Source: Malus domestica (taxonomy: Eukaryota > Streptophyta > Magnoliopsida > Rosales > Rosaceae). Taken from it: a stretch of DNA of 64,000 nucleotides. A model generated the notes under the pieces. It was not told the origin of the DNA. It saw only the letters and a program-made list of their open reading frames with translations, and searched no databases. This document shows, one piece after another, positions 6,089 to 64,000 of the stretch. Positions within the stretch are counted from its first letter, which is position 1, and every line of letters starts with the position of its first letter. The stretch lies in contig NC_091668.1 in assembly GCF_042453785.1 (NCBI RefSeq), positions 9,072,001 through 9,136,000 on the forward strand. Direction: 5' to 3'. Both the position numbers and the translations under genes were made by a program.

Positions 6089-6245
6089 AGGTGTTGAAGA
6101 GAGAAGAGGTCGAACAAATCAAGATCTTAGAAGTGTAAGAATGGAGCTTGTACTGGTGGAGATTCAAGTGTGCTTTGGAACTTAATGCCAGCCCCTATAA
6201 AAATCTGCACTCGACGGAGCTTCAGAAATCGAAGAGGCGCCTGCT

Positions 6246-6440: not shown

Positions 6441-6779
6441 CAAAAATCGAAGAGGCACCTACTTTTCCAGCCTTGGCAGCACCTGTCACACGCACACTCA
6501 GCTTTGCGGAAATTATGGGCATTCTGTCGAAGACTTCTGGTGAAGTAGAAAGCACATGAGTCTTACTGTTCAATCACCCACTTCCCACACGCAATAGTAG
6601 TTCATGTGTATCACAGATAACTCTGCCAAAGTTCTCTGCCAAAGTTGAGCACGTGAAGCTTGCAGCTTCCACTACATCGCTCTGACCAAGACGGGTAAAA
6701 GAATAGCAAAGAAACAGCACTAACAAAGTTTAGACACATAAATTTTGAAGGTCTAGCTACCCCATATTATTACCCACAA

Positions 6780-10257: not shown

Positions 10258-10540
10258 TTAGGAGTAAAAGATTTTGCATTTTTGACCTTTTGGGCGTAAA
10301 ATTAGACGACTTACTATTTAGGCGTGAGTTTTGGGGTTTGAATTAGTAGGTTTTGGCCTTTTGGGGTTTTGAAAATACAAGTACATTGCTAACTCTCCAA
10401 AAGCCTTGTTGTATATCATTGATATCAGCCATTTAGCACGTTGCTTTCAGTTGGGTATCACATTAGCCTAGTGAGATTAACAAGGAGAACATATCTACAA
10501 CATTGATACAATTAGCTACATGTAATTCGCCGATTGCAAT

Positions 10541-16500: not shown

Positions 16501-19500
16501 TGCCATAAGGATTTGCAATTTCCGCTGATGGCAATTCAAATAAACATCAACATCCATAGGCTTTGTCTTCTCGCATGTTTTGATTAAAATGTCTAGTGCT
16601 GATAGTTCAACAGAAGTAATTTCCTCTCCGCCTTTATCAGCTAAGCGCAAGGGTAATGCATCAGGGGGAGCATTTTTTGTTGCAAATAGAAGTGGAACAA
16701 GCAAGGACATGCACTCCATGTACATTTCCTTCTCAATCATCTCACCCAAAGTCTTCTTCATCAAGAAATCAACCTTTAAAATGTTAATTTCATGGAGAAT
16801 TCTATAAATGGTTAACTCTTTAACAACCTTGCAATATGGAAGGCGGATCACACATTGGGAATCATTCGTATTTTCCTTCTTTTCCAAAAGAGACAATGAA
16901 ATACAGAATTCTTGGTGGGCTTTTTCCTTGTTGCCATCCAAAACAGACAACCGTCCACTTAACCAGAAAAAACGAACCCAGAAGGAACTGTTACTTGTTA
17001 AAGAACCACCTAATGATACATCCTGACGAACAGAGGTGTTCACGGACATTCCATCAGTACCAAAGAATCTCTTAAGCCCAAAAATACATTCATCTTCCAC
17101 AGCTACTGATTCGATAATTTTACAAAGATGATAAGATGCCTCAGACATGAATTCAGATAGCCTGGAAACATCGGAAGACATCGACCCAAGATCATAATAA
17201 AGTTCAGCAAGAAAAAGACAACATTCAGGGCTCCTATCCTTCCCCCAATTCCTTGTAATTCTTTCCAACTCCAAGAACTTAACAAATGCATCCTGATACA
17301 AAAGACCTCTACTGGCAGCATCCTCTAAAAGCAAATGAGCCACATGGAAAGCACCATAGTTATTTGATGTTTTTTTAATAAATCTGGACACGTCACCATA
17401 TTCGGTATCCCATGGATTAGCTTGATCAGGACATGAAACAGAACTATGACCAGAATCTTTGCTTCCTGATCTACCAGCAACAAAAGGTTCTAGATATTGA
17501 AGTACAGCCTTGGCCTGATCCTTACCATTAGCAAATTCAATATCTTCTTTCCCCGGTTTACGGCTTCTAAGCCTTTCAAGACGAGTACTCCGCCTTTCCT
17601 GTGGTTGGAAGTCTAGAAAATTTGTTGCTTTTTCTAAAACAACACCTGTTCGTTCAGTGTTACAATCACCAAATACAGCATTTCCACTGATTGGGGATAA
17701 GTTAAACCCTTTCCTTTCCTCAAATCCTATGGTACTCTCTGAACTAGGAGGTAAATGCAAAATTAATCTGACATCTCCAGATCGGTATGATTTTGCTTCC
17801 CCCATCTCAGACTGACACCCATTCAACGGGAGTAAGATATCCAAGAGTGCATCAACAAGAGCAGCCCAAGAAGCTTCTGCAAGGTTCAGATCTATGGTCT
17901 GCTTCAGCTTCTTGGATGCAGCGCCCTCCTCTAGATTTTCATCAGTAGCTTTTCTCTTGTCAACGAATCTTAGACGGACATGTTTAGGTTCTAGCTTATC
18001 TATACCTCTAGGAGCAAATGGAACTGGCTCGGACTCCTCAATGGTTCTCTTGACATGCAAAGCACGAGAATGTGATGGCCAATGCCTCAAAATTAACTCA
18101 GCCACAGAAAGGCATGCAACCTCATCACCAATAGCAATAAGAACTTCCAATAATTTCTCCATGCAGTTCCCTGCATAAAAATTTCAGAGAAGACATAATA
18201 TTACTCTGTCAAAATATGGTGCTGAGCCCATCATTATGAATATAGGACATGTATTTTAGTATGGATGTAGAGAAAAATAATTCAAACATCATAAATTGCT
18301 CACAATTATTAGGGCTACATATAAGCCCTTGCTCAAATGCCCAACGGGATATACTGAGAGAACCCATTGAGCATGACAATGTTCCCAGCTGGTTCCAGAC
18401 AACAGAATCTTTGGTATCAATCTCTACAGCTTGAAGATAACATCGTAAAGCATTCTCATAATATGCTGAACCTTGTTGAAGGTAAACATTGGCAAGGTTC
18501 TTCAGAGCCAAAAATCTGCAGTCGGCATGAAAAATATAATTGGAGAAAGATGTTTATGGACATCTTGTTCATTTTTTTTCTTTTTATCCTTTTTATTCTC
18601 ACAAAAATATTAGTGAGAGAAAAGTTACAAAACTAAAATTCTACAAGAGACTGATTCCTCCTATGTGAAATAGAAATTTGTACACCGACTCCGAGAATTG
18701 CACAAAGTATATTATGGAGTAGTGCAGAAATCCAAACCTGAGTTGCAATAGATGGCAATCACTAACACTACCATCCACCTGCATGGCAATAGAAACAAGT
18801 ATAACTACCTATTCATAGACAAACAACAAGACTGCCATCTAAATAATGTCCGCTGAAGGTCATACGCTCACCTGCGCATTTTCTATAAGAGGATCTTTTA
18901 GGACGGATTCTAACAGTTCAGCAGCCTTTTTGTATTCCTTGACTTGCAATTTGTGAAGTCCTTCATGATATGTTTGTGAAAGATGGAATTCCTGCCATGA
19001 CCAAACTAAACAGTATGAACTCTATCTAATCACTGATCAGAAAAAGAAAACATCTTCAGCTGAGAAAATCTAAACACTTATGAATCGGGCTACCATACAG
19101 AAAACCCGGGTCCAATTCACATTTTCCGGCTCACTCAGTTTATTGAAACAATGATAAGAAGTACAATAAACTTCCCAAATATTAATGCTACACAGAATTC
19201 AAATTTCTCTCCTTTGACCGCAATAAATTGACTTCTGCTAAAGGTGCTTGAAATTAATATACTATCCCAGAAAATCCCAACTCATTGAGCTAAATCAACC
19301 CAATAATAGCTGAACTGTAACAGAAAAAGTAGAGAGAGAGAGAAGGAGAGAGGCATGCCTGAGCTTCTTTGGTGGGAGCTAAAGGTTCCCATTTGCCTTT
19401 GGACTCCGTATCATTGATAGCTGCAATCGAGAACTGAAAAAGCATAGAAATTCAGAACCCGAACACCGAAAACAAAATCGAAAAAAACTAAATTAAATAA

Positions 19501-19544
19501 AATAAACTCGATCGAATAAAAGAAGCGTTCGAATTACTCACCAT
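10541..19544 (-). CDS. CABIN1: CABIN1-like (calcineurin-binding protein 1-like) TPR protein, HIRA-complex component
   Basis: The nineteen exons sum to 1968 residues with no frame break. On the minus strand they are 19544-19542, 19433-19359, 18991-18872, 18778-18738, 18515-18304, 18170-16300, 16106-15909, 15805-15143, 14963-14722, 14598-14388, 14290-14135, 13806-13649, 13546-13354, 13236-12857, 12662-12482, 12339-12110, 11957-11297, 11020-10942 and 10773-10541. The N-terminus ([16 protein letters not shown]) leads into TPR-like helices ([39 protein letters not shown]). The 1.87-kb exon holds a basic/acidic linker ([20 protein letters not shown]). Exons 11-13 hold a second helical repeat region; the C-terminus is low-complexity. 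Arabidopsis At4g32820 is the relative; in animals CABIN1 acts in the HIRA histone H3.3 chaperone complex. Nuclear chromatin role is inferred by family. Intron 2 uses a GC donor. Truncated copies lie at 52-53.6 and 61.5-62.8 kb. Confidence 0.9.
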
Positions 19545-19968
19545 TGTCGAAAATTCGAATGCAGCAACAGTTGCAGAGAGGGACTCTGTTCAGCTAATAC
19601 TAATTCTATCTACTGAAAAGGGGATTAGGGTTTTTGCTCTGCAAAATTAACCCCAAAAATATAATTCGATCAGAGCTGGCTGAGTAGCTGTTATTGTTAT
19701 TGAGCGAGGGAGATTTCGGTAGGAAGACGATTAACGGCAACCGGAGTGCGTCGTTTTAGCGGTTTTATGAAGTAATAAGAAACTTTTTTTTTTTTTTAAG
19801 TTAACTCGTAATAAGAAATTTAGAACGACCGAAACGGTGCGTTTAGTGCTTTCTTCTTCTTCTATAGTGCTGCTTTCTGAACGCTTCGTTTAGAGCTGGT
19901 TGCCGACTGATTGGTTCCTGAGAAAATATTCACTGATCGATTCCCGAGAAAATTAATATGCAATCTAG

Positions 19969-27664: not shown

Positions 27665-28108
27665 GGCCAAATTGGATTATTCATCCCCGTGGTCATAGGA
27701 AACTTACATGATGACCCCCGTGGTGAAAAAACTAGGAATTAAACCCCTGTGGTCAAGAATGTTAGCAAATTTAGTCCAAAAGTAAGATTTCTGCTAAATG
27801 ACTGTTAAAAGTATGGGTAAAACTGTATTTTCAGTTCCAATTAACATTTAAAATAAATATTTTTATTATAACAATTAACAAAAAAAATAATGTTTAATTT
27901 TTTAAATAAAAAAAACCCCAATTCAATGTCAATTGGAACTGAAAATACAGTTTTACCCCAACTTTTAACAGTCATTTAACAGAAATCTTACTTTTGGACT
28001 AAATTTGCTAACATTCTAGACCATAGAGGTTTAATTCTTAGTTTTTTCACCACGGGAGTCATCATGCAAGTGTCCTATGACCACGGGGATGAACAATCCA
28101 ATTTAGCC
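27665..28108. mobile_element. Mutator-type fold-back MITE, 444 bp, perfect 9-bp TSD
   Basis: The whole element is almost a palindrome: each arm is about 200 bp. The left arm starts GGCCAAATTGGATTATTCAT and the right arm ends ATGAACAATCCAATTTAGCC. AAAATAAAA flanks it on both sides (27656-27664 and 28109-28117). A 9-bp duplication with long inverted repeats fits Mutator-derived MITEs. A diverged relative is at 41993-42385. Confidence 0.8.
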
Positions 28109-39792: not shown

Positions 39793-40824
39793 ATGTCGTG
39801 GCAGCAGTACGTCGACGACCACCTGATGTGCGATATCGACGGCAACCGCCTCACCGCCGCCGCTATCCTCGGCCAAGACGGCAGCGTTTGGTCTCAGAGC
39901 GCCTCTTTCCCTGCGGTTCGACTCTCTCTCTCTCTCTTTTTTCTTAGTGTTTATTTCGCTTTTTAAGTTCTAGATTTACTTCGTTCACTGGATCTGATTT
40001 CGAAAAGTAACTTTATCACTGACTGGTTCGGTCGATCGGTTTCTGATCCGATCGATGACATGCATACGATTTGAACTTGATAGAGAATTGATGAACTTAA
40101 TTGAAGTGTTTATGTGGGTTTTGATCTGATTAATTCGGAGTAATCGTTCTTGATTTGTATCAGATGCGTGATTTACTTTTACTGTATTACTGTTTGGATC
40201 AGAGTGTAAATCTAAATGCTCAGAACAAATTGGTTTATTTTTTTGTTATGTTGCCGAGTATATTGTTCACTGGCGTGATTTTGTTGTTTGATTGTTGTTA
40301 TAGTTTAAGCCTGAGGAGATTGCTGCAATTCTGAAAGATTTCGATCAACCCGGAACACTTGCCCCAACTGGATTATTCCTTGGTGGGACGAAGTATATGG
40401 TGATCCAGGGTGAACCCGGCGCTGTCATTCGAGGAAAGAAGGTGAGGTTTTGGAATCCTGCTCTTACCAGATGCCATTGCTATTAGCTTAAATTCAGAGA
40501 TTGTGGAATACAGAACTCCTTTGTCATATGAATGTCGTGTTGATTGATTGTGGTTCAGTGTTGCTACTTAGAGTTTGCGTCGAAGATGGGGAGATTTGGA
40601 AACCACATAATGCTACTTTATAGGTGCAGATGTTTGATTTTGTTTTTCTCTTTGATATTTCTATTGACGTGATGCGTCTACTACATCAGGGTTCGGGCGG
40701 AATTACTATCAAGAAGACCAGCCAGGCCCTGTTAATCGGTATATATGATGAGCCTGTGACTCCTGGGCAGTGCAACATAGTTGTTGAGAGGCTGGGCGAT
40801 TACCTTATCGAGCAGGGTCTCTAA
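39793..40824 (+). CDS. PRF: Profilin (Mal d 4 / Pyr c 4-type pan-allergen)
   Basis: Actin-monomer-binding protein that also binds phosphoinositides and poly-proline, and a plant-food allergen. Three exons (39793-39915, 40304-40441, 40690-40824) encode 131 residues, the standard plant profilin length. The start [20 protein letters not shown] carries the conserved Trp/Tyr of the poly-proline site. The middle has [20 protein letters not shown] and the end [20 protein letters not shown], the classic plant profilin C-terminus. The sequence agrees with what I remember of apple Mal d 4. The last exon and its 3' flank recur as two truncated copies at 53.6 and 62.8 kb. Confidence 0.95.
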
Positions 40825-48759: not shown

Positions 48760-49358
48760 GATCATCTCTAATTCTTGGTCTAAAATCTAAAATTTTTAGT
48801 CCAGAAAATTTAAATTTTAACCCAAAAACAGTTTTTCTGCTCCAATCATTCTGGCCTAAAATTTTAACCTCAAATTATTAAAGAATGAATTTAGACTAAT
48901 TTTTTTTCTTAAATTAACTTTTTTAAAATAAAAAATTATGTAGACTATCATAATTTAATTCTATGAACATTTTAACCTAAAGATATTTAGATTCTAACAA
49001 ATACTGAAAAATCACTAATCGATACCATGAAACTCGTTAAACACTATGAAAAAAATATGAAACAAATCAACGATTTTTTTTAATTACTGTAGCCATTAGA
49101 TTTAAATTTGGACCATTAATTTTTTTTTTTACCTTTGAATTTCATCAAATTAGATCTTAACCGTTGGATTCAATGAATTTATAAAAATAAAACTAAATAA
49201 AATATACATATATGATGGGCCAGCCCCACTAATCCTGGGCTAAATTTGGCTTCCATTTGAGCTTTAGGTTTTACGCCACATTTTAGCATTGGGTTGGGTT
49301 GAGTTTTGGGGAAAATAGAAGTGGAAATTTGAGTTTTAACTCAGGATTGGAGAAGGCC
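48760..49358. mobile_element. PIF/Harbinger-type MITE, 599 bp, TSD TTA (uninterrupted sister of 41.9 kb)
   Basis: Ends GATCATCTCTAATTCTTGG and CAGGATTGGAGAAGGCC; TTA at 48757-48759 and 49359-49361. Homologous end to end with 41908-42903 minus the nested element. Its right end is immediately followed by the left arm of the large palindrome. Confidence 0.75.
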
Positions 49359-50301
49359 TTAGTATAACATTGGGTTAAAAAAAATTTAACATATGAAAAT
49401 TTAAAAACCTTGATAATTCAGGATAATGAAGTGTGAATTACCCTTAATATTAATATAAATCACCAACACAAATACTTGGTGTAGAAGAGGCCACATCTAC
49501 TACCTTTAGTTGGAAAGAGAGAGAGTTATTCTCCCCCAAGTAAAGGAGTGGTTGAAAATATCTTGAACCATGTACTTTCTCTATATATGAGAGAGTGTAG
49601 AAATGTAAAAGTGTATGGAATGCTTTGAACTCTAAACATAGAGTCATCTTTTGAGTTTTAAGAAACACCAAATCATGAAATAAATAAAAGTTAGTGTGGA
49701 CTCTATTGGAGTTTTAAAGTTTAATTTTTTTCTCTCCTTCTCCTCCTTGCCAAAAGGGTAGCGGAGCTCATTATGCATCCCGAGAATGCGTCACACATCC
49801 ACTTTTTCAAAAGTGGAGGTTAGCAGTGAAGAAAGTGAAGTTGTTTTAAGATGGTACGCGAAAACCCATCTAGTTTTTCGCTTTGTTTTGTAATTTTTAT
49901 TCTAAATATTTTTTGTTGGATTCTAGACAAAATTGTATTTGAATTATATTATTGTTAACTTATTATGAGGTTTAACCTACTTCCTTATTATAATCGTTTG
50001 TAAAACGATGAACCCTAAAACCTGTGTTATCGCATCACTCATTCAAGTCTATTGCCTTTAGCTCCCAACCTCAAAATTGAAACGAGAGAGAGAGGCTTTA
50101 CTGCAACGAGTTGGGTGATGACCGACTGGTGACTGGTTATTGACTCACAAGCCTCTCTCTCACATTGGTGACTGGCTAATGCAGCATCGTATCAATACTC
50201 ATGCCTCTCTCTCATCCCTCGTTACTGTACCATCTGGCTGACAGCTGTGAGCATATTCTGGTTGGGGGCATGAACCCCTCCCTACAACCCTAGGTGTACA
50301 C

Positions 50302-50308
50302 TATAAAA
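50302..50308 (+). promoter_or_regulatory. TATA box of the left palindrome arm
   Basis: TATAAAA within GTACACTATAAAAGAGGTGA, 58 bp before an ATG at 50360. The same block, with the same TATA-to-ATG spacing, recurs at 63852. This is a plausible core promoter reading towards the palindrome centre. Confidence 0.55.
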
Positions 50309-50359
50309 GAGGTGATATCCGTTTTTGCTTGCGAAAGAAAAAATCCAAACAAAATCATC

Positions 50360-50545
50360 ATGTTTTGTCTGAACGGCGCGGTGATTGTGATGAGGTTGTC
50401 CAAGATGTGCTCCGGACATGGGAAGCACAATGCCAAGGTTTTTCGAGTGATTCTGAAGGAGGATGTCAAGTTGGCCAAGGGGGTTATCGAACTCCGCATG
50501 CATCCGGATAATGTCTCTGAATTCTCCAAGATAGATCTTTTGTAG
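50360..50545 (+). CDS. Short unrecognised open frame in the palindrome arm
   Basis: Begins MFCLNGAVIVMRLSKMCSGH and continues NAKVFRVILKEDVKLAKGVI, then ELRMHPDNVSEFSKIDLL and a stop (62 residues). Related frames start at 60740 (MVHLNGMMAAWRLSKMCSGH) and 63910 (MVHLNGTVSAWRLSKMCFGH), and the mirror image lies on the right arm. I do not recognise the protein. The frame continues after the stop as KPKMRVFDAVCKLTVFAELF. It could be the decayed start of a host gene duplicated into the inverted repeat, or simply transcribed non-coding sequence. A short basic/hydrophobic peptide without signal sequence. Confidence 0.3.
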   Translation: MFCLNGAVIVMRLSKMCSGHGKHNAKVFRVILKEDVKLAKGVIELRMHPDNVSEFSKIDLL

Positions 50546-50946
50546 AAACCCAAGATGCGTGTTTTCGACGCCGTGTGCAAGCTTACCGTGTTTGCGGAGC
50601 TCTTCCACATCTCTTCCTCCCTCAGAGCAGGAAGAGCCAGAAGGATGTGGAAGAGCTCCGCAAACACGGTGAGCTTGCACACGGCGTCGAAAACACGCAT
50701 CTTGGGTTTCTACAAAAGATCTATCTTGGAGAATTCAGAGACATTATCCGGATGCATGCGGAGTTCGATAACCCCCTTGGCCAACTTGACATCCTCATTC
50801 AGAATCACTCGAAAAATCTTGGCATTGTGCTTCCCATGTCCGGAGCACATCTTGGACAATCTCCACGCGGTCACCGCACCGTTTAGACGAACCATGATGA
50901 TTTTGTTTGGATTTTTTCTTTCGCGAGCAAAAACGGATATCACCTC

Positions 50947-50953
50947 TTTTATA
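50947..50953 (-). promoter_or_regulatory. TATA box of the right palindrome arm
   Basis: Mirror image of the left-arm TATAAAA, on the minus strand and also directed to the centre. If both act, the locus gives convergent, self-complementary transcripts. Confidence 0.5.
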
Positions 50954-51891
50954 ATGTACACCTAGGGTTGTAGGGAGCAGTTCATGGCCCCAGCTAGAAT
51001 ATGCTCACAGCTGTCAGCCAGATGGTACGGTAATGAGGGATGAGAGAGACATGAATATTGATACGCTGCTGCATTAGCCAGTCACCAATGTGAGAGAGAG
51101 GCTTGTGAGTCAATAACCAGTCACCAGTCGGTCATCACCCGACTCGCTGCAGTAAAGCCTCTCTCTCTCGTTTCAATTTTGAGGTTGGGAGCTAAAGGCA
51201 ATAGACTTGAATGAGTGATGCGATAGCACAGGTTTTAGGGTTCATCTTTTTACAAACGATTTATAGTAAGGAAGTAGGTTAAACCTCATAATAAGTTAAC
51301 AATAATATAATTCAAATACGATTTTGTCTAGAATCCAACAAAAAATATTGAGAATAAAAATTACAACACAAAGCGAAAAACTAGATGGGTTTTCGCGTAC
51401 CATCTTAAAACAACTTCGCTTTCTTTACTGCTAACCTCCACTTTTGAAAAAGTGGATGTGTGACACATTCTCGGAATGCATAATGAGCTCCACTACCCTT
51501 TTGGCAAGGAGGAGAAAAATAAAATTAAACTTTAAAATTCAGAGATTGGCTCCAATAGAGTCCACACTAATTTTTATTTATTTCATGATTTGGTATTTCT
51601 TAAAACTCAAAAGATGACTATATGTTTAGAGTTCAAAGCACTCCATACATTTCTACACTCTCTCATATATAGAGAAAGTACATGGTTCAAGATATTTTCA
51701 ACCACTCCTTTACTTGGGGGAGAATAACTCTCTCTCTTCCCAACTAAAGGTAGTAGATGTGGCCCTGTTCTACACCAAGCATTTGTGTTGGTGATTTATA
51801 TTAATATTAAGGGTAATTCACACTTCATTATCCCGAATTATCAGGGTTTTCAAATTTTCATATGTTAATTTTTTTTAACCCAATGTTATAC

Positions 51892-52127
51892 TAAGGCTCA
51901 TCATCTTTTGCATCTGCCTATGCTCTTCATCTTTTGTTTTCCTTTATGCCATTGGACCAATTCATAAGCCTCCTATATTTGCTATGGAGCTTTGCCTATT
52001 CATACATAGTTATATACCCACAATTTCAAATTTTGTGCAGTTAAAGGATAGAAGTGATCAATCCCATTGAACATGGGAGGAAGGAAGTGTATCGAATTGC
52101 CAAAAGAAACTGAACATTATATGGATG
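51892..52127 (+). other. Spacer shared with 61870-62110, source unknown
   Basis: CTCATCATCTTTTGCATCTG and TTCATAAGCCTCCTATATTT occur here and in the second module, but I find no equivalent in the CABIN1 gene of this window. It therefore belongs to the ancestral form of the module. Confidence 0.55.
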
Positions 52128-53583
52128 CATGTTTGTTGTTTATCATTCTGATTTGTGAATTCTGTAGAAACCCAAAGATTTTTGTGTCGAAAAGTTTCAT
52201 TTTATAATGATCCTGTTTACAGGAAGTAGACTTGTTGCTAAATGATGGCAGGATGGAGGAAGAATGCTACTTTACCTCAAAGAGTTGAGACAAGTCGAAG
52301 GAGTAGACGGTGTCTATTAATGAGTTTGGCTCTGGCAAAGACATCAGTTCAGCAGGTTAGACCCCCGTTCTTTCCTATGTATTATTGTATTGGTGGGGAG
52401 TGGGGTATTGTCTTTTCTTTTTCTTGCTCATGTTGGCCATACAGGTCCTTTGGGATTTTCCAAATTTTTTTCAATGCCATTAAGGCAAACAAGAAAAAAA
52501 GCTAGTGTTTTTTTTTTGCTTTGATTTTGGATATTAGAATACCCTCGGGATTTGATTGATCAATGTGATGATTTTTTCTCATTTTGTGGCTCAGTCTTGA
52601 GATACACAAGTTATTAACATTGGTGTACCATGATATCCATCAGAGTGGTGCCATTTTATGATCAGCGAACTGTTGTATCTGTGAAGGATGCAGCATGGAC
52701 GATGTTTTGTGGGAAATCAATGAGACATTTTAACAGAGCTTTTGCTCATAAGTATGCCCTCTTTTCTACCTAGTTTCATTTTTCCAGACAAAAACCAACA
52801 ACCTCGTGTGCCATAATCAAATGGTAATCTGTCTCTGCTTTCTTCTGTATCAGGCAAGATTGGTCACATGCTTACTATATCGGAAAGCTCTGTGAAAAGC
52901 TCAAGTTCTTCTCTTATGAGACATCGGTAATATTATTACAAAGCTATTGTTGCTGCTGGTAGATTGGGAAGCAAAGATTCTACTGATACTTCTGTTTCAT
53001 GTCCTGATCAAGCCAATCCACGGGATACCGAATATGGTGATATGTCCAGATTTATTAAAAAAAACGTCAAATAACTATGGTGCTTTCCCTGTGGCTCATT
53101 TGCTTTTAGAGGAGGCTGCTAGTAGAGGTCTCTTGTATCAGAGACCTATGGATGTTGATGTTTATTTGAATTGCCATCAGCGGAAATTGCAAATCCTTAT
53201 TGCAGCTGCAGGGATTGGTGAATGCCTTGATTCCTGTAAATCCTTACTATTGAAATCAGGATCAAACATTCGCTATCCTTCTGGCATAGACACACAAGAA
53301 AGTTCAAGCAAGCAGTGCTGGAATTTATTGGTTGCCGAGGAAGTGAAGGCTATAGTGTTTCCCAAGTGAAGAACCGGATCGATCAATCTGGGGATTCTGT
53401 AAGTCAATCGATATTCATGTATAAATAGCTTTGATACTCGATCATGCTTACCTCAAACTGTAAAACTCGGTACATTTTTTTCCAATCAAACAAAGAATTA
53501 GGTTTTCACAAGTCAATAACTTTATGCATCAGTCCAGAGATTTTGTAATTTCATGTCTTGTGCAGCATGTAATAATATCTTAT
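52128..53583 (+). pseudogene. CABIN1-like pseudogene fragment, module A (exons out of order)
   Basis: Order along the plus strand: end of intron 10 and exon 11 ([16 protein letters not shown], 52255-52355), exon 12 ([20 protein letters not shown], about 52590-52755), start of exon 13 ([17 protein letters not shown], 52856-52928), then back to parts of exon 6. These are [14 protein letters not shown] to AASRGLLYQ, joined to [20 protein letters not shown] and [16 protein letters not shown], followed by the start of intron 6. In the intact gene exon 6 lies upstream of exons 11-13. Joins are near 52950 and 53141. Several stops and an indel (near 53055) remove function. Splice borders of exons 11 and 12 are still recognisable. 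Confidence 0.85.
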
Positions 53584-54330
53584 TGGTGCAGATGTTTAAT
53601 TTTGTTTAACTCTGTGATATTTCTATTGACGTGATGGGTCTACTCTATCAGCATCAGGGTTCGGGTGGAATTACTATCAAGAAGACCAGCCAGGCCCTGT
53701 TAATCGGTATGTATGATGAGCCTGTGACTCCTGGGCAGTGCAACATAGTCGTTGAGAGGCTGGGCGATTACCTTATCGAGCAGGGTCTCTAATTGCCTCG
53801 GTGAGTTGATTATCTCCCCAATTGCCTCCTGTGATTTGCTGTTTTTGGAGACTTGGCTTGCATCAACTGGAATTCACGTTGAATTCGTTCTTTTGTTTTG
53901 ACAGTTACAATTTAATTTGAAGTCATGGTGAATTTGGTTTGAAAACAAAGTTGTTGCTGCTTGGGATGTGATGGATATTATGTGTGAAAGCCATTTGTCT
54001 TTGCATTCTGGGATCTCTGGATATGGATTGTCGTTGTGAATGATAGTGTTTTAATTTTTCAATTATTATCCCTAAAATTTATTTTCTTCCTTTCACTTGA
54101 AAACATATGTAATTGGTGTCGTTATCTCCGGAGGTATCTCTGGAATGCCTGCATGAAACGGATGTTTGTACGATGTAGTTAGTTTTGAGTGGTGAGTTTT
54201 ATCACTTGTCAAATTTGGGCGAGCTAGTCCGGAATTAACCGAGCCATTTGTCAAATTCACTTTGAATTTTATCATTGTTACAAAGGAAACACTTCAAAGT
54301 CGAAAATTCCCAGATGCCTTATTTACTAAT
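53584..54330 (+). pseudogene. Profilin pseudogene fragment, module A (end of intron 2, exon 3, 3' flank)
   Basis: Starts inside profilin intron 2 (GGTGCAGATGTTTAATTTTG), continues through exon 3 (about 53658-53792) and 500 bp of 3' flank. Exon 3 encodes [17 protein letters not shown], then [19 protein letters not shown] and DYLIEQGL: one residue different (I to M) from the intact gene. Exons 1 and 2 are missing, so no profilin can be made. It is fused directly to CABIN1 intron 6 on its left. Confidence 0.9.
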
Positions 54331-54411
54331 TTTGAAGTTGTCTTAACTTTGATATTTTGTTACTTAGTACTACGGTCTGGTGGGATTCCTCTTCGCTTGG
54401 AAGTGAGAGGT

Positions 54412-55152
54412 CTTAGATAGGGGTGCAATTCGGGTGGGTTGGAAGGTCAACTCAATCATAACCCAACTTTTACAATTCGGGCTCGGGTTTGGGTTGGGTT
54501 TCATTCGGGTTCATTTGAGCTCGGGTTTAATTGGGTTAGGGTTCACTTGGGTTGGGTTCGGGTTACCCAACTTTTTTAAGTTTAATCTTGTAACAACTTA
54601 GTTTTTAAGAATTCATAAAAAAGTTGAGCCAAGTAGCATCAAAGCTAGCTAACTTTAAATTCATAAATCAATCAAAGTTGTTGAGCAATTGCTTCGAGAC
54701 ACAATGAATTTAGGTTTTGGAGACTAACAATCTACTCTAAAACTTTAGGTTTTGGAGACTAACAATCTACTCTAAAGCTTTAGGATTTAGAGACTACGAA
54801 TATCAGCTGACTAATCAAAGCCTCTTATTACCTAAAAGCTTAAGTAATTATAAAAGGAATTTTTTAAAAAAAATATTAGAAAGGGCGTTGGTTTTTGGAC
54901 TTGGCTTACTTGGGTGTAGTATGAGCATTAATTGATATAGGTTACAATCTGGTTAGATTGAGTTTGGTTAGTCGGGTTGGGAATGGATGGGCAAATGATC
55001 AGTCCAACTCAATCCAATCAATAAACGGGTTGAAATTGGGTTGGGTTTGGACGGGTTATAACTAAAAAAATACCCGCTTGTTCAGGTTTAAAGTCGAGTT
55101 GGACATGGGCGGGTTTGGATTGGCCCAACCTAAGTTGCACCTCTAATCTAAG
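54412..55152. mobile_element. Inverted-repeat element with GGGTGCAA / TTGCACCTC ends
   Basis: Ends CTTAGATAGGGGTGCAA and TTGCACCTCTAATCTAAG are inverted. The interior is rich in GGGTTGGGTT and GGGTTCGGG motifs and contains a 35-bp tandem repeat (from 54710, about 2.5 units, TTAGGTTTTGGAGACTAACA). Non-coding; superfamily not assigned. Confidence 0.6.
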
Positions 55153-55862
55153 GTTCAAATCTCGTGGATAACGAATTCGATATCAAATTAAGTTGCTTAT
55201 TGTATGATTCAGAAGAACTCACCCTTTCAAATCATCATACACAAATTCCAAGTTATGGGTCTTTTGACCTATTAATCATCCAAACCCAAATGGTATAAAA
55301 CCTACAAATCCAACTCTAAAATCCAAAATTTCAAATGGTATGAACCCATGAAGGTTCTTCATGCGTCAATCACCCATTCGATCAAATTCTAGAAATCGAA
55401 ATCGTTTCGGTAAGCTGGGATTAAATTTGAATAGACACTCTCCTTAAGCTGAGAGAGCGAATTCTGATAAAAAACAAAAAAATCAGATAAGTAGACAATC
55501 GGTTCGGTAAGCTGAGGTTAAATTTGACGACAAATAAATGTTTACATCGATCTTCCGCAAGAAGATTACCTCCACTTCGATATACAAAAGAGAACTTCGT
55601 TCTCTCCTTCGTGAGAGTTCTCCTTTCCTTCATGAAAGTTCTTCTCACCGTCTGCGTATGAGTGCATCTCCAGCTTCTGTTCTCCTCCTCGCTGCCACTG
55701 ATCCTAGCTATGACTAGGGTTGGTGGTAGCTCTTTGCTCTTCTTGTTTTCCTTTTCTTTCCTTTTGTCCCTGCTAGTTTTTTACTCTACTGCTGCCTCTA
55801 GTTTCCCTTCCTCAACTCCCCTTTCTTCCTTTCCTTTTCCCTCCACCTACTTTGTTTTCATC
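55153..55862. other. Spacer with module-derived tail, no gene
   Basis: The motif ACGACAAATAAATGTTTACA with ATCTTCCGCAAGAAGATT (55527-55567) is shared with 63518-63557, so it belongs to the repeated module. The rest is CT-rich sequence with no coding evidence. Confidence 0.45.
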
Positions 55863-55871
55863 ACTCCACAC

Positions 55872-56881
55872 TAGGGCTGGGCACAGGCCAGGCCGGGCCT
55901 AAAATTGGAGGGACCGGACCAGACCCGCTTGAAAATACAATGGGCCGGGGCGGGACGGGTTTTGCTATTTTGAAAATGAGAATCGGACTTAACCCGGCCC
56001 GTATAAAACGGGCCGATTCCTACGGGTCCAACGGGTACTCTTTTTTTTTTCTTTTTTTTTTCTCTCTTTCTCTCTCTTTAATTTTCAGTATCCCACCAGA
56101 CTCCCAGTTGAAGAGCCACCGGAGACAAATAAGAAAACTGGATCCATTAGTAAGCACGGCCTGGAATTATTCAAGAACAACAAAATAGGTAAAATAAAAG
56201 TATACATCCGCGGGATTATGAATTGCATGCATTTAAATCGGAAAACCCCAAAAATTAAGCAGCAAAAGAAGAAGAAAATCAACGATTGAGTACCTCGTGA
56301 ATGACGACGGTGAGGCTGGCGATGGTGTTTTTGGCCGCGCACTCGTCCAATTTGACTTTGAGGAAGAGCTTGAGGTTCTTCTCCTTCTCGGATGAGCGTC
56401 GTCCTTCCCGGGCATGGCTGAAATAGGAAAGGAATCTGGCGACCGACAGACCCCTGACGACTGGAGGCGTCGAGATCTGGATTCTGGAAGCTGGAAATGG
56501 TTGCTAAAACGAAGAATTCAAGGTCGAGGTTGAGATCGAGGTCAAGGTCGAGATTGAGGTCGAGAGGAGTCGGGGACTCGAAATGAGTGGAGGACTCGAG
56601 AGGACTTTGGTCTGGATCTGGATCTAGAGATTGAGGTCGAGAGGAGTCGGGGACTCGAAATGTGGCGGTGTTAAAAATAAACGGTGGGGATTCAATCCCT
56701 ATAATTGAACGATGGAAAAGGTTCGGGCCGGGGGCCCGCTTTATTTGAAAATTGTACCCGCCCCGCCCCATTAATTAAATGGACCCGCCCCGCCCCGTTT
56801 TGAATTTACAATATATGTACCCGCCCCGTACCCGCATTACCCGCCCCTACCCGCGGGTCCAGGACCTGTTTGCCCAACCTT
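55872..56881. mobile_element. hAT-like element, 1010 bp, with an internal exon-like fragment
   Basis: Ends TAGGGCTGGGCACAGGCC and GTTTGCCCAACCTT are inverted; ACTCCACAC and ACTCCACCC flank it (55863-55871, 56882-56890), a target duplication with one change. Sub-terminal GC-rich blocks (GGGCCGGGGCGGGACGGG, CCCGCCCCGCCCC) face each other. No transposase. The middle, read on the minus strand around 56400-56293, has an even, coding-like segment ending at a GT donor. Confidence 0.6.
56293..56420 (-). pseudogene. Exon-like fragment inside the hAT-like element, source unknown
   Basis: One minus-strand frame reads EKEKNLKLFLKVKLDECAAK then NTIASLTVVIHE and stops at a clean donor (GAG then GTACTC). 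The charged, regular composition and the splice border are what a captured host exon would show. I do not recognise the parent gene. Other frames across the same bases are Arg/Ser-rich and look like shadows. Confidence 0.4.
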
Positions 56882-56890
56882 ACTCCACCC

Positions 56891-57428
56891 TTTCCACTTG
56901 GCTCACTCCTCCAGTACTCTCATCCTCTAGGTCGGCTTCCACTAATCCACACCGTAAATGCGAATCTTTGCGATTCCTATTTAGGAGGGAGATGTGTAAA
57001 GCTTCGGATTTTTTTGATGCTCAGGTGTTGTCACCACCTTCTTGCCTCGACTTGGCCTTGTTGCCTCTGTTGCTTATGGGTTGTTTCCTGCGAGCTTTCT
57101 TCGATTTGTGGTGCAGATCTTCAATGTGCTCTTTGGTGGTTGTTGAAGCCTTCTTTTTAGCCATTTTCAGGGCTCGATTTGGCAACTAGTTCGAGTCTGG
57201 AGGTCCTTCGGATGGCAGCAGCGGCAGAGGATGCAAGCTGTTCGGTGTTTTTTTTTTTTCTGTTTTCTGTTGGGCTTGGTTTTGTTGTACTTTGGTCCAT
57301 ACTTTTGTTGTTGTGTTTGTGTTGTATGTGAGTCTCTCTCTTGTAACTATGTGTTGCTAGTTATAAAACTTGCAGCCCAATTTTCAAAAAAAAAAAAAAA
57401 AAAAAGAAAAAAGAAAAAAAAAAAAAAG
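56891..57428 (+). mobile_element. Possible LINE or processed-sequence 3' end with A-rich tail
   Basis: The stretch ends in TTGTAACTATGTGTTGCTAG and CAGCCCAATTTTC, followed by about 45 bases of nearly pure A (57386-57428). That resembles the 3' end of an L1-type LINE or a retroposed transcript. No conserved domain was read upstream. Confidence 0.35.
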
Positions 57429-57540
57429 CCACAAAGTAATTCAGCTTGTAAAGTTATGAGTTTTGGCTTTATTTTTCTGTTTTCAACGGTAATCAGGGAT
57501 GGATTGGTCTGTGACATCGGTGAGCGGAGAGAACGATGGC

Positions 57541-57592
57541 AGAGTCCTTTATTTATTTATTTATTTATTTTATTATTATTATTATTATTTTA
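57541..57592. repeat. Simple repeat (TTTA)n / (TTA)n
   Basis: Runs of TTTA and then TTA units; microsatellite. Confidence 0.85.
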
Positions 57593-57599
57593 TCTATGC

Positions 57600-58740
57600 T
57601 GCTTCCTGTAACTCAATTTTGATCATAATTTGCTCTTTAAAACTCAAAATTCGTTGTTTTACTCTTGAAAATTTGATTTTGATTGCGTTTTTCTCCCTCA
57701 AACTCAAACGACACCACTTTGCTCTTTGAAACTCGATTTTCAACCTCAGTTTGCCTCATAAAACTCAAAAGTCGTCATTTTACTCTCTGAAACTCAATAT
57801 TCACTCTACTCTAACTTGTTCCCTGTATTCCGCTTGTATATGTGGCATAATTAGGGCCCACTTATGGCCGACATGGCACAAATATAAAACTCACATATTC
57901 AATCAAATGGTGTCACATAGATTGAAACAAGAAGAACAACAGAAAATTCAATTTCCAAACATTGTATAACACATTTAAAAACGAAAAAGTAAGAAAAACA
58001 ACATAAACAATTCATGGGTTTCATATCTTTGATCCCTCTCTCTTCCCTATCTCTCTCTAATCGTTGTCCATACATTCATTCCTTCTACCCTTCATCTCCA
58101 GCCACCTTATTCTTAGTAAAAATAGGTTGCTAGTCGTCCAAGTAAACAGTTGATATTCGTCAAACTCCACATAAATCTTACACAAATGTCATGGGTGTAT
58201 CGCCCTCCCGAAATGCAAAATATTGAACATGGTGTGAATGTTAGTCACATAATCATCAGCATTTGATGAAGTCACATGCGGCGACACTTTTATTTGTTCA
58301 TCCTTTTCAGGCTCAATAATTGGAAAACTTCCCCATCATAATTCATATTTATGTCATGTAATTTAATGGCTCACAATAAGAGTAAGAATGTTTGTTTCCT
58401 GATCTTAATCGTTGGTTGGATAGTGTTTATTTTAAAATAAAAAATTAATACTAGACTTTTTTTTTCCCACAACCCACAAAATATACAACTCTTTGTATCT
58501 GGTAGTAGCTGGTGTATATAATTCTTTGTAGGCTTAAATATATGAATATGAATATGAATATATATATATATATATATATATTAAGTTAGTTTAAGAGATT
58601 TAGAGGAAATTTTTGTACATAAAATCCTAATGGTTTTTTTTCTAATTTTTTCATTCATTTTTATTTCTATTTTTACAATAAAATATTAAGATGTGAACCT
58701 TGATATTGAGATTTATGAACTTCATTTAGTTCTCACTGTA
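57600..58740. other. AT-rich intergenic DNA, no gene
   Basis: Several CTTTGAAACTC-like repeats (57635-57800) suggest a decayed tandem array. A (TA)n run lies at 58558-58582. Nothing else is recognised. Confidence 0.45.
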
Positions 58741-58741
58741 A

Positions 58742-59102
58742 TACTATATTTGGATGAGGGAAATAAACTTGGAATTTGGATAAAATTCAGAATTTGTAAA
58801 TTGACATGCACCAATTTCTTTGTTTGGATTCATAAACAAAGGAATTTAGAATTTCCGCGTAGAAAAAAACTTGGAATTTGGGACTCCCAATTCCCAAGTT
58901 AAAATTCCATGTAAATAGGTGTCATTTCCCAATTTCTATGATTGAGAGCTTAAAAATAACAAATTCCGTATTCAATTCCATTGTTCATTTAGGCTAACCA
59001 AATAAGAAAATTCACAAATTCTAGAAAATAAAATCCCGTCAATTCAATTTCCGTCATTTTAAAATTCCTTAATAATCTTAAATTTCTTCATCCAAACATA
59101 GT
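58742..59102. mobile_element. hAT-like MITE, copy 2 (inverted relative to 25286-25645)
   Basis: Ends TACTATATTTGGATGAGG and CTTCATCCAAACATAGTG are inverted repeats. The interior corresponds base-block by base-block to the reverse complement of the 25.3-kb element. Non-coding. Confidence 0.65.
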
Positions 59103-59849
59103 GTAAGAGAATTGACGACAAATATGGTTGTAGTTGATAAAAATTTGGTTTCTCTCATTTTACTCAAACGGTAATGCTAAGAAGATCAAACTTGTAAACA
59201 AAATTTTACATACCAAATGACATAAAGGTTGATGATTGGATTAGTACCTAAGCGTTGATAAACATTATTAGACGGGTTGAAGCGGCACCACCACGATGAT
59301 TATTTTGGTCAGATAGGACAATTTCCATGCCAAGTGAATTAACACGTTAAAACACCACAATGACGTATGTACCGCAAGCGGCCGATCCGTCATGCATGGC
59401 TTGCAAAAGATTTTAACGCATAGGAGGGAGGGAGCACACGAGAACCCCAATGTTAACATTCTTGTTCTAACTAGGGATGAACAACGGTTATGGCAGACGG
59501 GTAACCGCAGTTATTTGCACATAATCGTTTAGATTAATACCCGTATAATTGTTTACTCATTGGATAATCTTATAAACGGGTAATCGTAACCATAACCATA
59601 ATCACTTACCCATTTAACTATACTCGTTTGCCCGTTTATTATTACAAGTTGAAAATCAAATCAAATCAAATTTTATTTTTTTTGTTAAGCCTCTCAGGGC
59701 GGAGACTCCTTCTCCTGCCCCACACCGCCTCTCCTAATCTCTCTCCTCCAATTTCGTAGATTATTTATCCCTTTTGAATTTTGACTTAGTTTTTATCTAG
59801 AGTTAGCTAGGATTATGGATTTCTATATGGATCAACGAGTTGAATAGGT

Positions 59850-60180
59850 AACAATGGAGTGTTCTGTGATGGCGCAGGGAGAATTGGATCGGGTAAAAGG
59901 TCTGTGGAGCCGCGACAACGACGAGAAGCTACGGCAGCTCGTTCACCTCCACGGTGCTCTCGCAACTGGTCAGTGACAATCAAGTCGATGCCAGGACGAT
60001 CAGGCAAGTCCTGCTGGCAACAGTGGTACAACCAGCAATCGCCGGAGGTGAAGCAACGGGCCTTCACTCATGAGGAGGATGAGATCACGGACGAGGCGCA
60101 TGCCAATTACGGAAATAAGTGGGCCACCATCGGCAGGCTCCTCAACGACCATACGGACAATGAGATATCTCAATAAATTT
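59850..60180 (+). pseudogene. R2R3-MYB pseudogene fragment (MYB44/70/73/77 group-like)
   Basis: The R2 repeat starts ELDRVKGLWSRDNDEKLRQL VHLHG in one frame (spacing mine). After a frameshift near 59955 it continues RNWSVTIKSMPGRSGKSCWQ in another, followed by R3 (QRAFTHEEDEITDEAHANYG, NKWATIGRLLNDHTDNEIS). Conserved MYB tryptophans are partly kept. At the point where functional members continue KNHWNSTLKR a TAA follows (60174-60176). The order and wording of the repeats identify the stress-related subgroup; the gene is dead because of the frameshift and truncation. No intact copy is in the window. Confidence 0.8.
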
Positions 60181-60445
60181 TCGAGACTCATGTTGCTAAA
60201 GTGAGTAACTATTCAGATTTGTTGTCGATATGGAATCTCAATAATTTTACGTCTCGGATTTCGAGTGCCACGTGTCTATATGTGAGTAACTTTACATATT
60301 TATTATCGATATGGTATCTCAATAATTTTACTTCTCTGATTTTGAATGTCACGTGTCGATATGTGAGCAACTCTTCAGATTTCCTGTCGATATGTAATCT
60401 TAATAATTTTTCAGATAAGATTTTGAGTGCCACGTGTCGAGATGT
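60163..60445. repeat. 81-bp tandem repeat, three units plus a partial
   Basis: TCGATATGG begins units at 60225 and 60306, with a third at 60387; each has ATCTCAATAATTTTAC and GCCACGTGTC-like blocks. A partial unit overlaps the end of the MYB pseudogene (GATATCTCAATAAATTTTCG). Each unit contains a CACGTG core. Confidence 0.85.
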
Positions 60446-60734
60446 AATTGGTCGTGGGAATTTTAGATATGATTTTTATCTGCGTGACACTTCTTATCTT
60501 CAGCTTCCAATGTCCATAAATATGGTGGATATTGGGCTATAATTCACACACCTTCAGCTTTGCTCTCTCCAATATCTCTTTCAATTCAATCTTTTCAAGT
60601 AGTACTATGTTGAAGATTGTGTTCTTTAATGTTGTTTAAATTTAATATTATTTAATATTGTTTAATATTATTTACGTATATTCGTTTTTGCTCACTGCCC
60701 ATTTTTGCTCCTAAAAGAAAAAATCCAAACAAAA

Positions 60735-61170
60735 TCAGCATGGTTCATCTGAACGGCATGATGGCCGCGTGGAGGTTGTCCAAGATGTGCTCCGGACATA
60801 GGAAACACAATGCCAAGGTTTTTCGAGTGATTCTGAAGGAGGATGTCAAGATGGCCAAGGGGATGTCAAACTCCGCATGCATCCGGATAATGCCTCTGAA
60901 GTTCTCCAAGATGGATTCTTTGGAGAAACCCAAGATGTGCATTTTCGACTTCGTGAACACTGTGAGCTTGCACACGGCGTCGAAAACACACATCTTGGGT
61001 TTCTACAAAAGATCTATCTTGGAGAATTCAGAGACATTATCCGGATGCATGCGGAGTTCGATAACCCCCTTGGCCAACTTGACATCCTCCTTCATAATCA
61101 CTCGAAAAATCTTGGCATTCTGCTTCCCATGTTCGGAGCACATTTTGGACAACCTTCACGCGGTCATCAA
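60735..61170 (+). ncRNA. Candidate hairpin-RNA locus, imperfect inverted repeat (module B)
   Basis: The forward arm (about 60738-60950) is homologous to the palindrome arm after its promoter. It is followed within about a dozen bases by the reverse arm (about 60962-61168). Arms are about 205 bp with roughly one mismatch in ten, so the transcript would form a long imperfect stem. The 5' homology begins at GTTTTTGCTC near 60684; the TATA box found in the other units is not present here. Non-coding status is inferred; no RNA evidence is available. Confidence 0.45.
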
Positions 61171-61505
61171 GGCGAGCCCCGGAAAAATACTATTTTCAGA
61201 AGGACTTTGTTTAAAATTTTGTTCGGACTCTTTGGACTTTTCCTATTTGAAGTTTGTTTGTTTGAGACTATTTTTATTAATTATGGGAATGCTGGCTTTG
61301 CCTTTGATGTTGAATTTTTTATAAGGAAAACTAATGAAAAGGGCTTGAAAACTTTGAGTTTTAATGATAAAGACAAAATAAAGGGTAAAATGAACAATAC
61401 CGGGAGTTTTTAGTTAAAGTTCCCTTTTTCATATATATTTTTATTATATTTTGTTGCCTTGCTATTTAATTAATTGTCCAAATTTTGCACAATGGTTGGG
61501 TTAAA
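61171..61505 (+). other. Spacer between hairpin and CABIN1 fragment, module B
   Basis: Contains GAAAAATACTATTTTCAGAA and AAAGGGTAAAATGAACAATA, words I associate with a common apple interspersed repeat; otherwise uncharacterised. Confidence 0.3.
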
Positions 61506-62760
61506 TATGGTCCAGAAATTAGATGTGATTCATCCTATGAAGATGAGTACTGTAGGCACAAAAATACTTGCCCCGGTGATTACCAGACAAAGGAACAGTG
61601 TGCTGATGTTTTTCAGTACATACTCCCTTATGCAAAGGCTTCTTCTGTGAGCTCCTCCCCTCTCTCTCCTCTTTTTTTTTTTTAATTCCATGTGTTTGCA
61701 TACATTGCATGTGCCTATGCTCACCATTACAAATTATCACAAGGGTTCTAATGACAAGGCGTTGTAGCATTCTTTCTTTACTTGATTAATTGACTAATGA
61801 ATGATAAGACTTTATCTCTAGTATTCTCGAATGCTTAGACTATGTGTATGATTCGTGTAGTAAAAATGTATCAGCCTATGCTCATCATCTTTTGCATCTG
61901 CCTATTCTCCTCACCTTTTGTTTTCCTTTATGCCATTGGACCAATTCATAAGCCTCCTATATTTGCTATGGAGCTTTGCCTATTCATACATAGTTATATA
62001 CCCACAATTTCAAATTTTGTGCAGTTAAAGGATAGAAGTGATTAATCCCATTGAACATGGGAGGAAGTGTATCGAATCGCCAAAAGAAACTGAACATTAT
62101 ATGGATGCATATGCCTCAAATGCATGTTTGTTGTTTATCATTCTGATTTGTGAATTCTGCAGAAACCAAAAGATTTTTGTCTCGAAAAGTTTCATTTTAT
62201 AATGATCCTGTTTACAGGAAGTAGACTTGTTGCTAAATGAAGGCCGGATGGAGGAAGAATGCTACTTTACCTCAAAGAGTTGAGACAAGTCGAAGGAGGA
62301 GTAGACGGTGTCTAGTAATGAGTTTGGCTCTGGCAAAGACATCAGTTCAGCAGTTTAGACCCCTTTCTTTCCTCCATATTATTGTATTGGTGGGGAGTGG
62401 GGTATTGTCTTTTCTCTTTCTTGCTCATGTTGGCCATACAGGTCCTTTGGGATTTTCCAAATTTTTTTCAATTAGCATGCCATTAAGGCAAACAAGAAAA
62501 AAAGCTAGTTGTTTTTTTGCTTTGATTTTGGATATTAGAATACCCTCAGGATGTGATTGATCAATGTGATGATTTTTTCTCATTTTGTGGCTCAGTCTTG
62601 AGATACACGAGTTATTGGCATTGGTGTACCATGATATCCATCAGAGTGGTGCCATTTTATGATCATCGAACTGTTGTATCTGTGAAGGATGCAGCATGGA
62701 CGATGTTTTGTGGGAAAACATCGAGACACTTTAAAAAGAGCTTTTGCTCACAAGTATGCC
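61506..62760 (+). pseudogene. CABIN1-like pseudogene fragment, module B
   Basis: Begins inside exon 8 ([40 protein letters not shown]) with its donor and the first part of intron 8 (to about 61770). Next comes the spacer shared with module A (61870-62110), then the end of intron 10, exon 11 ([31 protein letters not shown]) and exon 12 ([15 protein letters not shown]), ending within CAAGTATGCCCTCTT. Exons 9 and 10 are missing. A one-base change in frame near 62730 and the missing exons make it non-functional. Confidence 0.85.
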
Positions 62761-63480
62761 CTCTTACCAGATGCCATTGCTACTAGCTTAAATTCAGAGA
62801 TGGTGGAATACAGAACTTCTTTGTCACATGAATGTCGTTTTGATTGATTGTGGTTAAGTTTTGGTACTAATATAGAATTTTGCGTCGAAGATGGGGAGAT
62901 TTGGAAACCACATACTGCTACTTTATAGGTGCAGATGTTTAATTTTGTTTAACTCTGATATTTCTATTGACGTGATGGGTCTACTATATCAGGGTTCCGG
63001 TGGAATTACTATCAAGAAGACCAGCCAGGCCCTGTTAATCGGTATATATGATGAGCCTGTGACTCCTGGGCAGTGCAACATAGTCGTTGAGAGGCTGGGC
63101 GATTACCTTATCGAGCAGGGTCTCTAATTGCTTCGGTGAGTTGATCATCTCCCCAATTGGCTCCTGTGATTTGCTGTTTTTGGAGACTTAGCTTGCATCA
63201 ACTGGAATTCACGTTGAATTCCTACTATTTAATTTCAACTCATGCTCTGGATATGGATTGTCGTTGTGAATGATAGTCTTTTAGTTTTACAATTATTATC
63301 CCCAAAGTTTATTTTCTTCCTCACTTGAAAACATATGTAATTGGTGTCGTTATCTCCCGAATGCCTGCGTGAAACGGGTGTTTATACTATGTAGTTTGGT
63401 GTACCAGACCATGAGTTGGGCGAGCTTGTCTAAAGATATTCACCACTTTCGAGTTTTGAGTGGTGAATTTTATCACGAGT
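62761..63480 (+). pseudogene. Profilin pseudogene fragment, module B (intron 2, exon 3, 3' flank)
   Basis: Begins with CTCTTACCAGATGCCATTGC, identical to profilin intron 2 at 40463, and runs through the intron and exon 3 (62993-63127) into the 3' flank. The exon-3 peptide is identical to that of the intact gene; nucleotide differences are silent (for example GTT to GTC in NIVVERL). No exons 1 and 2. A longer open frame entering from the intron is accidental. Confidence 0.9.
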
Positions 63481-63780
63481 AATGTTAGGTAAACTAAATT
63501 TGCAAACTAAATTTAACGACAAATAAATGTTTACATGGATCTTCCGCAAGAAGATTGAACAAACACTCGTGGAAGCATACCACATCTATGACTACCTCCA
63601 ATTCGATACCACAAAGTAATTAAGCCACTCCGTTGCATCGACAAAAGCATATGGAATTAGGAGTGCATTGCATGTCACGTTGGAATTATGAAGAGATTAC
63701 AAACCATGTATGAAAAAGCAATGAAAACAACAAATAAGACATAAGAAAGGGTTTCACAATATCCAGAGCTTTGAGCAAGC
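63481..63780. other. Module tail
   Basis: Contains ACGACAAATAAATGTTTACA and ATCTTCCGCAAGAAGATT shared with 55527-55567, then sequence without recognised content. It leads into the third promoter unit. Confidence 0.5.
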
Positions 63781-64000
63781 CATCTGGCCGATAGATGTGA
63801 GCATATTATGGCTGTTGGCATGAACTCCTCCCTACAACCCTAGGTGTACACTATAAAAGATGTGATATCCGTTTTTGCTCCTGAAAGAAAAAATCCAAAC
63901 AAAATCAACATGGTCCATCTGAACGGCACGGTGTCTGCGTGGAGGTTGTCCAAGATGTGCTTCGGACATAGGAAACACAATGCCAAGGTTTTTCGAGTGA
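63781..64000 (+). repeat. Third copy of the promoter/hairpin-arm unit, cut by the window end
   Basis: From CATCTGGCCGATAGATGTGAGC through TATAAAA at 63852-63858 and ATG at 63910 to CCAAGGTTTTTCGAGTGA, homologous to 50226-50457. Only the start is visible; whether an inverted arm follows lies outside the window. Confidence 0.85.

Follow-up and report, generated by a model that had tools for sequence, protein, structure and literature searches.

A probable local tandem array of decayed CABIN1-profilin gene fragments beside a long inverted repeat in the apple genome

The stretch C8:9072001-9136000 of one apple genome (Malus domestica, contig NC_091668.1 of a 651-Mb assembly in 19 contigs) contains a repeated module in which a hairpin unit is followed by pieces of a CABIN1-like gene joined to the last exon of a profilin gene. 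These 64,000 nt are referred to as the window. The question raised by this locus is what kind of repeat combines an inverted repeat with fragments of two genes. An earlier reading of the letters, the original prediction, had proposed either an amplifying segment or an undescribed class of gene-derived repeat. The analysis presented here points, with a probability of roughly four in five, to a local tandem array of single origin, in which a decayed and chimeric pseudogene of the non-processed type, next to a long inverted repeat, arose via end-joining and local duplication.

The window was compared with itself together with 40 kb of left and 80 kb of right flanking sequence, and matches shorter than 60 nt were dropped; positions above 64000 carry the window numbering on into the right flank. 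The module is present four times within about 32 kb, with copies A and B in the window, copy C mostly to the right of its edge, and a partial copy D. In total, the array has three hairpins and four copies of profilin exon 3. The longest common blocks are far beyond chance (A-B, 893 nt at 93%; A-C, 1728 nt at 92%; B-C, 1629 nt at 93%). The two copies first described as hairpin unit plus CABIN1-profilin chimera were recovered with their differing orders of parts, and the promoter unit expected to restart at 63781 is the beginning, at 63780, of a complete third copy. Rightward extension and a count of tandem copies, both called for by the prediction, gave the complete copy C and the partial copy D, about four copies in all. 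The interval first assigned to the module (51892-63480) is too narrow, since palindrome A (49356-51897) lies almost wholly to its left and the array reaches to about 81 kb in the window numbering.

Origin of the CABIN1-profilin fusion

Relatives of both fused genes lie within the window, oppositely oriented and separated by about 20 kb, in agreement with the prediction. The description of both as intact holds for the profilin gene (39793-40824, forward strand), which has exons at 39793-39915, 40304-40441 and 40690-40824 (123, 138 and 135 nt) and encodes 131 amino acids. For the CABIN1-like gene (10500-19551, minus strand, with approximate outer ends at ~10.5-19.5 kb), an open state was seen for the 637-codon exon only. 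The name CABIN1-like is that of the original prediction, and what is confirmed for this gene is the presence of TPR repeats only. Whole-genome searches scored the best candidates and skipped very common words, so that absence here means not found at that sensitivity. The 637-codon exon gave eight genome matches, all to its own gene or to array pieces, with no other full match, and none was found among PDB sequences. The profilin gene has a homeologue on C15 in the genome search. In the available part of PMC2621206, the text places Mal d 4.03A on apple linkage group (LG) 8 and Mal d 4.03B on LG15, while Mal d 4.03 is assigned to LG2 in the abstract; exon lengths of 123, 138 and 135 nt are given for two Prunus profilins. 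The intact profilin of the window is probably the allergen gene Mal d 4.03A, an assignment by inference rather than by accession. The 637-codon exon has no match on C15, which leaves no outgroup for dating the fusion.

The CABIN1 stretch common to copies A, B and C has 82 variable sites when polarised by the parent with gap columns left out. Of these, 41 are common to all three copies (a number that, without an outgroup, includes changes on the parent's own branch), 16 are private to C, 12 to B and 10 to A, and three are common to B and C. In the profilin stretch, six of 18 variable sites are common to the three copies, nine are private, and one each is shared by A and B, B and C, and A and C. 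A 20-nt exon deletion and an intron deletion are likewise common to A, B and C. The 41 shared sites, taken together with the shared small deletions, argue for one fusion rather than separate insertions. One fused founder with a near-simultaneous three-way split would explain the pattern of shared sites, and unrelated insertions would not. The possibility that the copies resolve into such insertions, which the original prediction named as refuting it, is contradicted by the shared derived sites and the unit junctions.

Intron sequence of the CABIN1-like parent is retained in A, B and C, and part of profilin intron 2 is found in all four copies, so that copying took place at the DNA level. A retroposed copy was considered and rejected because it requires intron loss and the introns are present. 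The CABIN1 pieces combine retained introns with a disabled frame, as in a non-processed pseudogene, carrying the 20-nt deletion and other indels not divisible by three (with exon limits inferred from frames); profilin exon 3 is not disabled. Since these lesions are common to A, B and C, the CABIN1 frame was already broken in their ancestor, before amplification.

The CABIN1 segments occur in permuted order relative to the parent (15284-15024, 14381-13452, 17483-17293, 16560-15828). Short overlaps are found at the junctions 13452/17483 (~3 nt), 13637/40461 in B (5 nt), 16115/40618 in A (4 nt), 15828/40040 in C (up to 7 nt) and between B and C (1 nt), and filler is found at 17293/16560 (3 nt) and between C and D (5 nt). 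Pieces of the CABIN1-like gene and of the nearby profilin DNA, introns included, are linked through short overlaps or filler, with the CABIN1 order permuted. A circular-DNA intermediate would explain the permutation (15284-13452, then 17483-15828), and partial tandem duplication with deletions, or template switching, fits equally. Profilin sequence is retained from 40461 onward in B and over 40040-40237 in C and D, so the founder most simply had both, including exon 2 (40304-40441). By parsimony, exon 2 would have been lost through three different later deletions, in A, in B and in the C/D lineage. The tail of one unit abuts the head of the next at B/C (63780) and at C/D (72160), and the adjacent head-to-tail units, their junctions and their common origin are those of a tandem array. 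Duplication may have proceeded by end-joining after replication or by unequal crossing-over. Of the amplifying segment first proposed, one module amplified in tandem thus stands, on the strength of the shared derived sites and unit junctions; ongoing amplification or polymorphism forms no part of this support.

Outside exon 3, substitutions amount to 48/1185 between A and B (4.1%), 99/2171 between B and C (4.6%) and 139/2330 between A and C (6.0%). Four observations weigh against the proposed history. C and D are 1.4% apart at one end of their common unit and 3.3% apart at the other; the hairpin sequences of A and C are ~13% apart (gaps included), more than their CABIN1 parts; the relations of B shift along its length; and the 135 nt of exon 3 contain three variable sites in the comparison of A, B and C, fewer than any of 767 heavily overlapping windows of the CABIN1 block. 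Given the uneven divergences of C and D, of the hairpins and of B, not every segment is compatible with a tandem history of one simple step, and the C-D values require that exchange or more than one event be allowed. Some exchange between copies probably took place, as is suggested by the hairpin of B with its one C-like and one A-like arm. As a unit, the array presumably makes no protein.

Copies of the module and their surroundings

Copy A starts with the long inverted repeat (49356-51897, no strand assigned), whose arms of ~1.27 kb meet at a centre near 50628 and each carry, by reading, a TATA-like box and the start of an orphan frame. It is followed on the forward strand by a shared spacer (51896-52131), seen in self-comparison and genome search. 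A section of this spacer, ~52011-52108, also occurs on C7 and C1, and the spacer is possibly of dispersed-repeat origin. Downstream are the CABIN1-like pieces (52132-53583, forward strand; parent 14381-13452, 17483-17293 and 16560-16115 of the minus strand) with introns kept and frame broken, and the profilin part (53580-54132, forward strand) with the end of intron 2, the open exon 3 (53658-53792) and 3' sequence. The downstream part of A (54206-55567, forward strand) consists of separate pieces at 54206-54411, 55152-55405 and 55499-55567 that match the downstream parts of C and D. About 5 kb of other sequence lie between A and B.

Copy B starts with a short hairpin (60699-61169, no strand assigned), of which the left arm is C-like and the right arm A-like and which is devoid of the TATA part. 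Its CABIN1-like pieces (61505-62765, forward strand) correspond to parent 15284-15024, then the shared spacer, then parent 14381-13637, with subdivisions at 61505-61769, from 61880 (spacer) and at 62127-62765. The profilin part (62761-63423, forward strand) runs from parent 40461 onward and includes the open exon 3 at 62993-63127. The tail of B (63508-63779, forward strand), which is equivalent to the tails of C (70319-70593) and D (79249-79457), ends at the tandem junction.

Copy C enters the window with the promoter part of its hairpin (63780-64000, forward strand). The whole copy comprises the hairpin (63780-64940), the spacer (from 64982), CABIN1 (65337-67695), profilin (67689-68191) and a downstream unit (68952-72159). 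The partial copy D comprises CABIN1 (72165-72257), profilin (72251-72941) and a downstream unit (77827-80995). An extra piece of the 5' region of the CABIN1-like gene is found at 81522-82475 (parent 19551-18593, 87.5%).

The downstream units of C and D hold further sequences. Minus-strand open frames without an assigned identity are found at 70946-71871, with a copy within 79764-80995, only in these two units; the outer end of this sequence (~71996-72159) is a high-copy short repeat. A zinc-knuckle fragment at 69964-70317 of C (zf-CCHC_4, 5e-11), which has a similar frame in D, probably derives from a retroelement. Copy D is split by a young long terminal repeat (LTR) retrotransposon (72940-77826) with 260-nt LTRs of 99.2% identity, CGGAA on both sides, and two long open frames (73217-75433 and 75369-77576). 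Copy B is immediately preceded by a MYB DNA-binding domain gene fragment (59844-60173; Pfam Myb_DNA-binding, 2.6e-11) and a high-copy dispersed repeat (60179-60598) with 81-nt internal direct repeats and at least 39 long matches elsewhere (best 40 of 615 candidates scored).

Farther from the array, a 586-nt direct repeat (4575-5160 and 8690-9275; 92% identical, 4.1 kb apart, with tandem repeats at 6244-7313 in between) possibly represents the LTRs of an older retrotransposon. A second inverted repeat at 27665-28108 (446 nt, 87% self-complementary) is unrelated to the array. No tRNA was found in the window, and a scan for promoters and terminators of bacterial type gave none.

Hairpins, exon 3 and competing explanations

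The hairpins could belong to an active endogenous hairpin-RNA locus, an early stage in the birth of a MIRNA or small interfering RNA (siRNA) gene by inverted duplication, in which the gene pieces would be passengers or give rise to secondary siRNAs. The arms of palindrome A have 1200 identical and 50 substituted positions (50/1250 aligned) and 42 gap columns; those of copy C differ at 54 of 432 aligned positions, and its centre lies elsewhere in the same source sequence than that of A. Copy A has a predicted RNA fold of -606 kcal/mol over 665 nt (0/20 shuffles as good) and copy B one of -324 kcal/mol over 476 nt (0/100 shuffles as good), so both are inverted duplications able to fold if transcribed. 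A TATA-like box and start region are present, by reading, in A and C; the promoter part is missing from B. Transcription from the promoter part of A or C would yield hairpin RNA, from which small RNAs directed chiefly at the array would arise.

Against activity of this kind, arm differences have no clear bias of G-U over A-C pairs (A 21/16; B 9/7, or 9/8 with other limits; C 19/18, or 18/18 with other limits). Two sub-stretches of A, chosen by the analyst and not weighed as a test, have 11 G-U and 4 A-C (50230-50628) and 2 and 10 (49356-49799). No founder or target gene was found outside the array in a genome search that is not suited to 21-nt targets. The microRNA reading was rejected on the basis of Rfam, where 10 matches (E up to 1, 49000-64000), eight on the centre of palindrome A and two on hairpin B, all stayed below gathering scores. 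That the locus is active in producing hairpin RNA, as the inverted-duplication model would have it, is possible but unsupported, and the explanation as a whole is unlikely.

The source gene of the hairpins has no match in Pfam, among PDB sequences or elsewhere in the genome, and comparison with viral contigs gave six stretches that matched a pattern, none of which was confirmed. The outer arms of palindrome A match short dispersed pieces (at least 41 matches, best 40 of 78 candidates scored; the best at 73% over ~265 nt, on C3). Differences in the hairpin frame are roughly even over the codon positions (for example 14/12/10 between the right arm of A and the left arm of C; 19/17/18 between the arms of C). 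As the frame is without relatives in the collections compared and lacks a third-position excess, the hairpins are read as non-coding remains of a source sequence that was inverted and duplicated near the fusion.

A second explanation treats the copies of exon 3 as live terminal exons that are spliced to sequence further upstream and maintained by selection. In each of the four copies the exon has its full length of 135 nt and an open frame, and three sites vary among them, while three separate deletions apparently removed exon 2. In pairwise comparison it is unexceptional between A and B, B and C, and C and D, where 18%, 25% and 40% of windows, respectively, have as many or fewer differences; none is as low between A and C (0/1781) or B and D (0/102), and A-D gave no windows. 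The broken upstream CABIN1 frames and the missing promoter part of B also speak against live exons. The low variation of exon 3 is a hint of constraint and not evidence of function, and live exons are a doubtful proposition. More doubtful again is a combination of the two, a live chimeric locus in which the promoter parts of A and C would drive long hairpin transcripts reading into CABIN1-profilin, and exon 3 would either be a terminal exon under selection or supply small RNAs acting on the intact profilin or the CABIN1-like gene.

Capture of the CABIN1 and profilin pieces by a transposon that then moved locally (a Pack-MULE, another terminal inverted repeat (TIR) element or a Helitron) could account for several intron-bearing gene fragments joined in one unit beside inverted repeats. 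The genome was searched with five queries (inner hairpin, CABIN1-bearing part, profilin-bearing part, spacer of B and C-specific hairpin), and the best candidates from its 651 Mb included no additional module copy. The other matches are the parents, the C15 profilin homeologue, weaker matches to other profilin genes (C2, C15) and short dispersed repeats. A scan for inverted repeats (50000-64000, arms of at least 25 nt) gave 14 pairs, 10 within or between hairpins and four in A/T-rich tracts elsewhere. Inverted repeats are located at one end of the module and not at both, with repeats shorter than 25 nt and Helitron ends outside the scan. Neither target-site duplication, judged by eye at the ends of palindrome A, nor dispersed copies among the best candidates were found, and the B/C and C/D junctions join unit tail to unit head; the marks of a TIR element are absent in this respect. 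Helitrons are characterized by a 5' TC, a 3' CTRR end with a subterminal hairpin, and insertion between A and T. For these elements the evidence consists of the failure to find dispersed copies, as no dedicated end scan was run. A gene-capturing transposon is accordingly very improbable. The undescribed class of gene-derived repeat is also unsupported, as the module was found in a single array in this genome, terminal repeats of at least 25 nt that would bound it were not seen, and known processes suffice.

Least probable of all is an assembly artefact in which haplotypes or chimeric contigs were wrongly placed in tandem, for although C and D are merely 1.4-3.3% apart, A, B and C are 4-6% apart with distinct deletions, the young LTR retrotransposon is present in D and not in C, and the palindrome A arms, at 4%, differ too much for a fold-back read artefact.

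Comparison with known systems

The proposed tandem array would be a well-preserved example of the formation and erosion of plant gene fusions through end-joining and tandem duplication, with parents, lesions, junctions and deletions within one 70-kb stretch. The array lies near a probable allergen profilin gene, and assays that genotype profilin or measure its expression could be misled by exon 3 sequences specific to single copies. If the hairpin is transcribed, the locus would offer a natural test for silencing of linked gene fragments by long inverted repeats. Among partial literature listings, in which most subscription papers are outside the coverage, no title or abstract opening concerned this array.

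The following comparisons are limited to the available parts of the respective papers. The inverted-duplication model of MIR genes (PMC10004981) is similar in its inverted duplication including a promoter-like region and in the potential for a long hairpin RNA. In contrast, a founder gene of the apple hairpin was not found and there is no clear structure-preserving change. Pack-MULEs (PMC4858842) are also assemblies of captured gene fragments, but the apple module is without two-sided terminal repeats, and target-site duplication and dispersed copies were not found. The maize P1-wr cluster (PMC2686159) consists of a known gene repeated eleven times in nearly perfect 12-kb units, and chimeras of p2 and p1 were formed by end-joining. 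It shares with the apple locus the head-to-tail array, end-joined chimeric genes and filler DNA, whereas the apple array has about four decayed copies that are 1.4-6% apart. Plant tandem and proximal duplicated pseudogenes (PMC7935947), for which the data are compatible with break-repair-mediated duplication, are likewise fragmented local gene copies. The apple array differs from them in that it joins fragments of two genes, and this chimera has itself been amplified beside a long inverted repeat.

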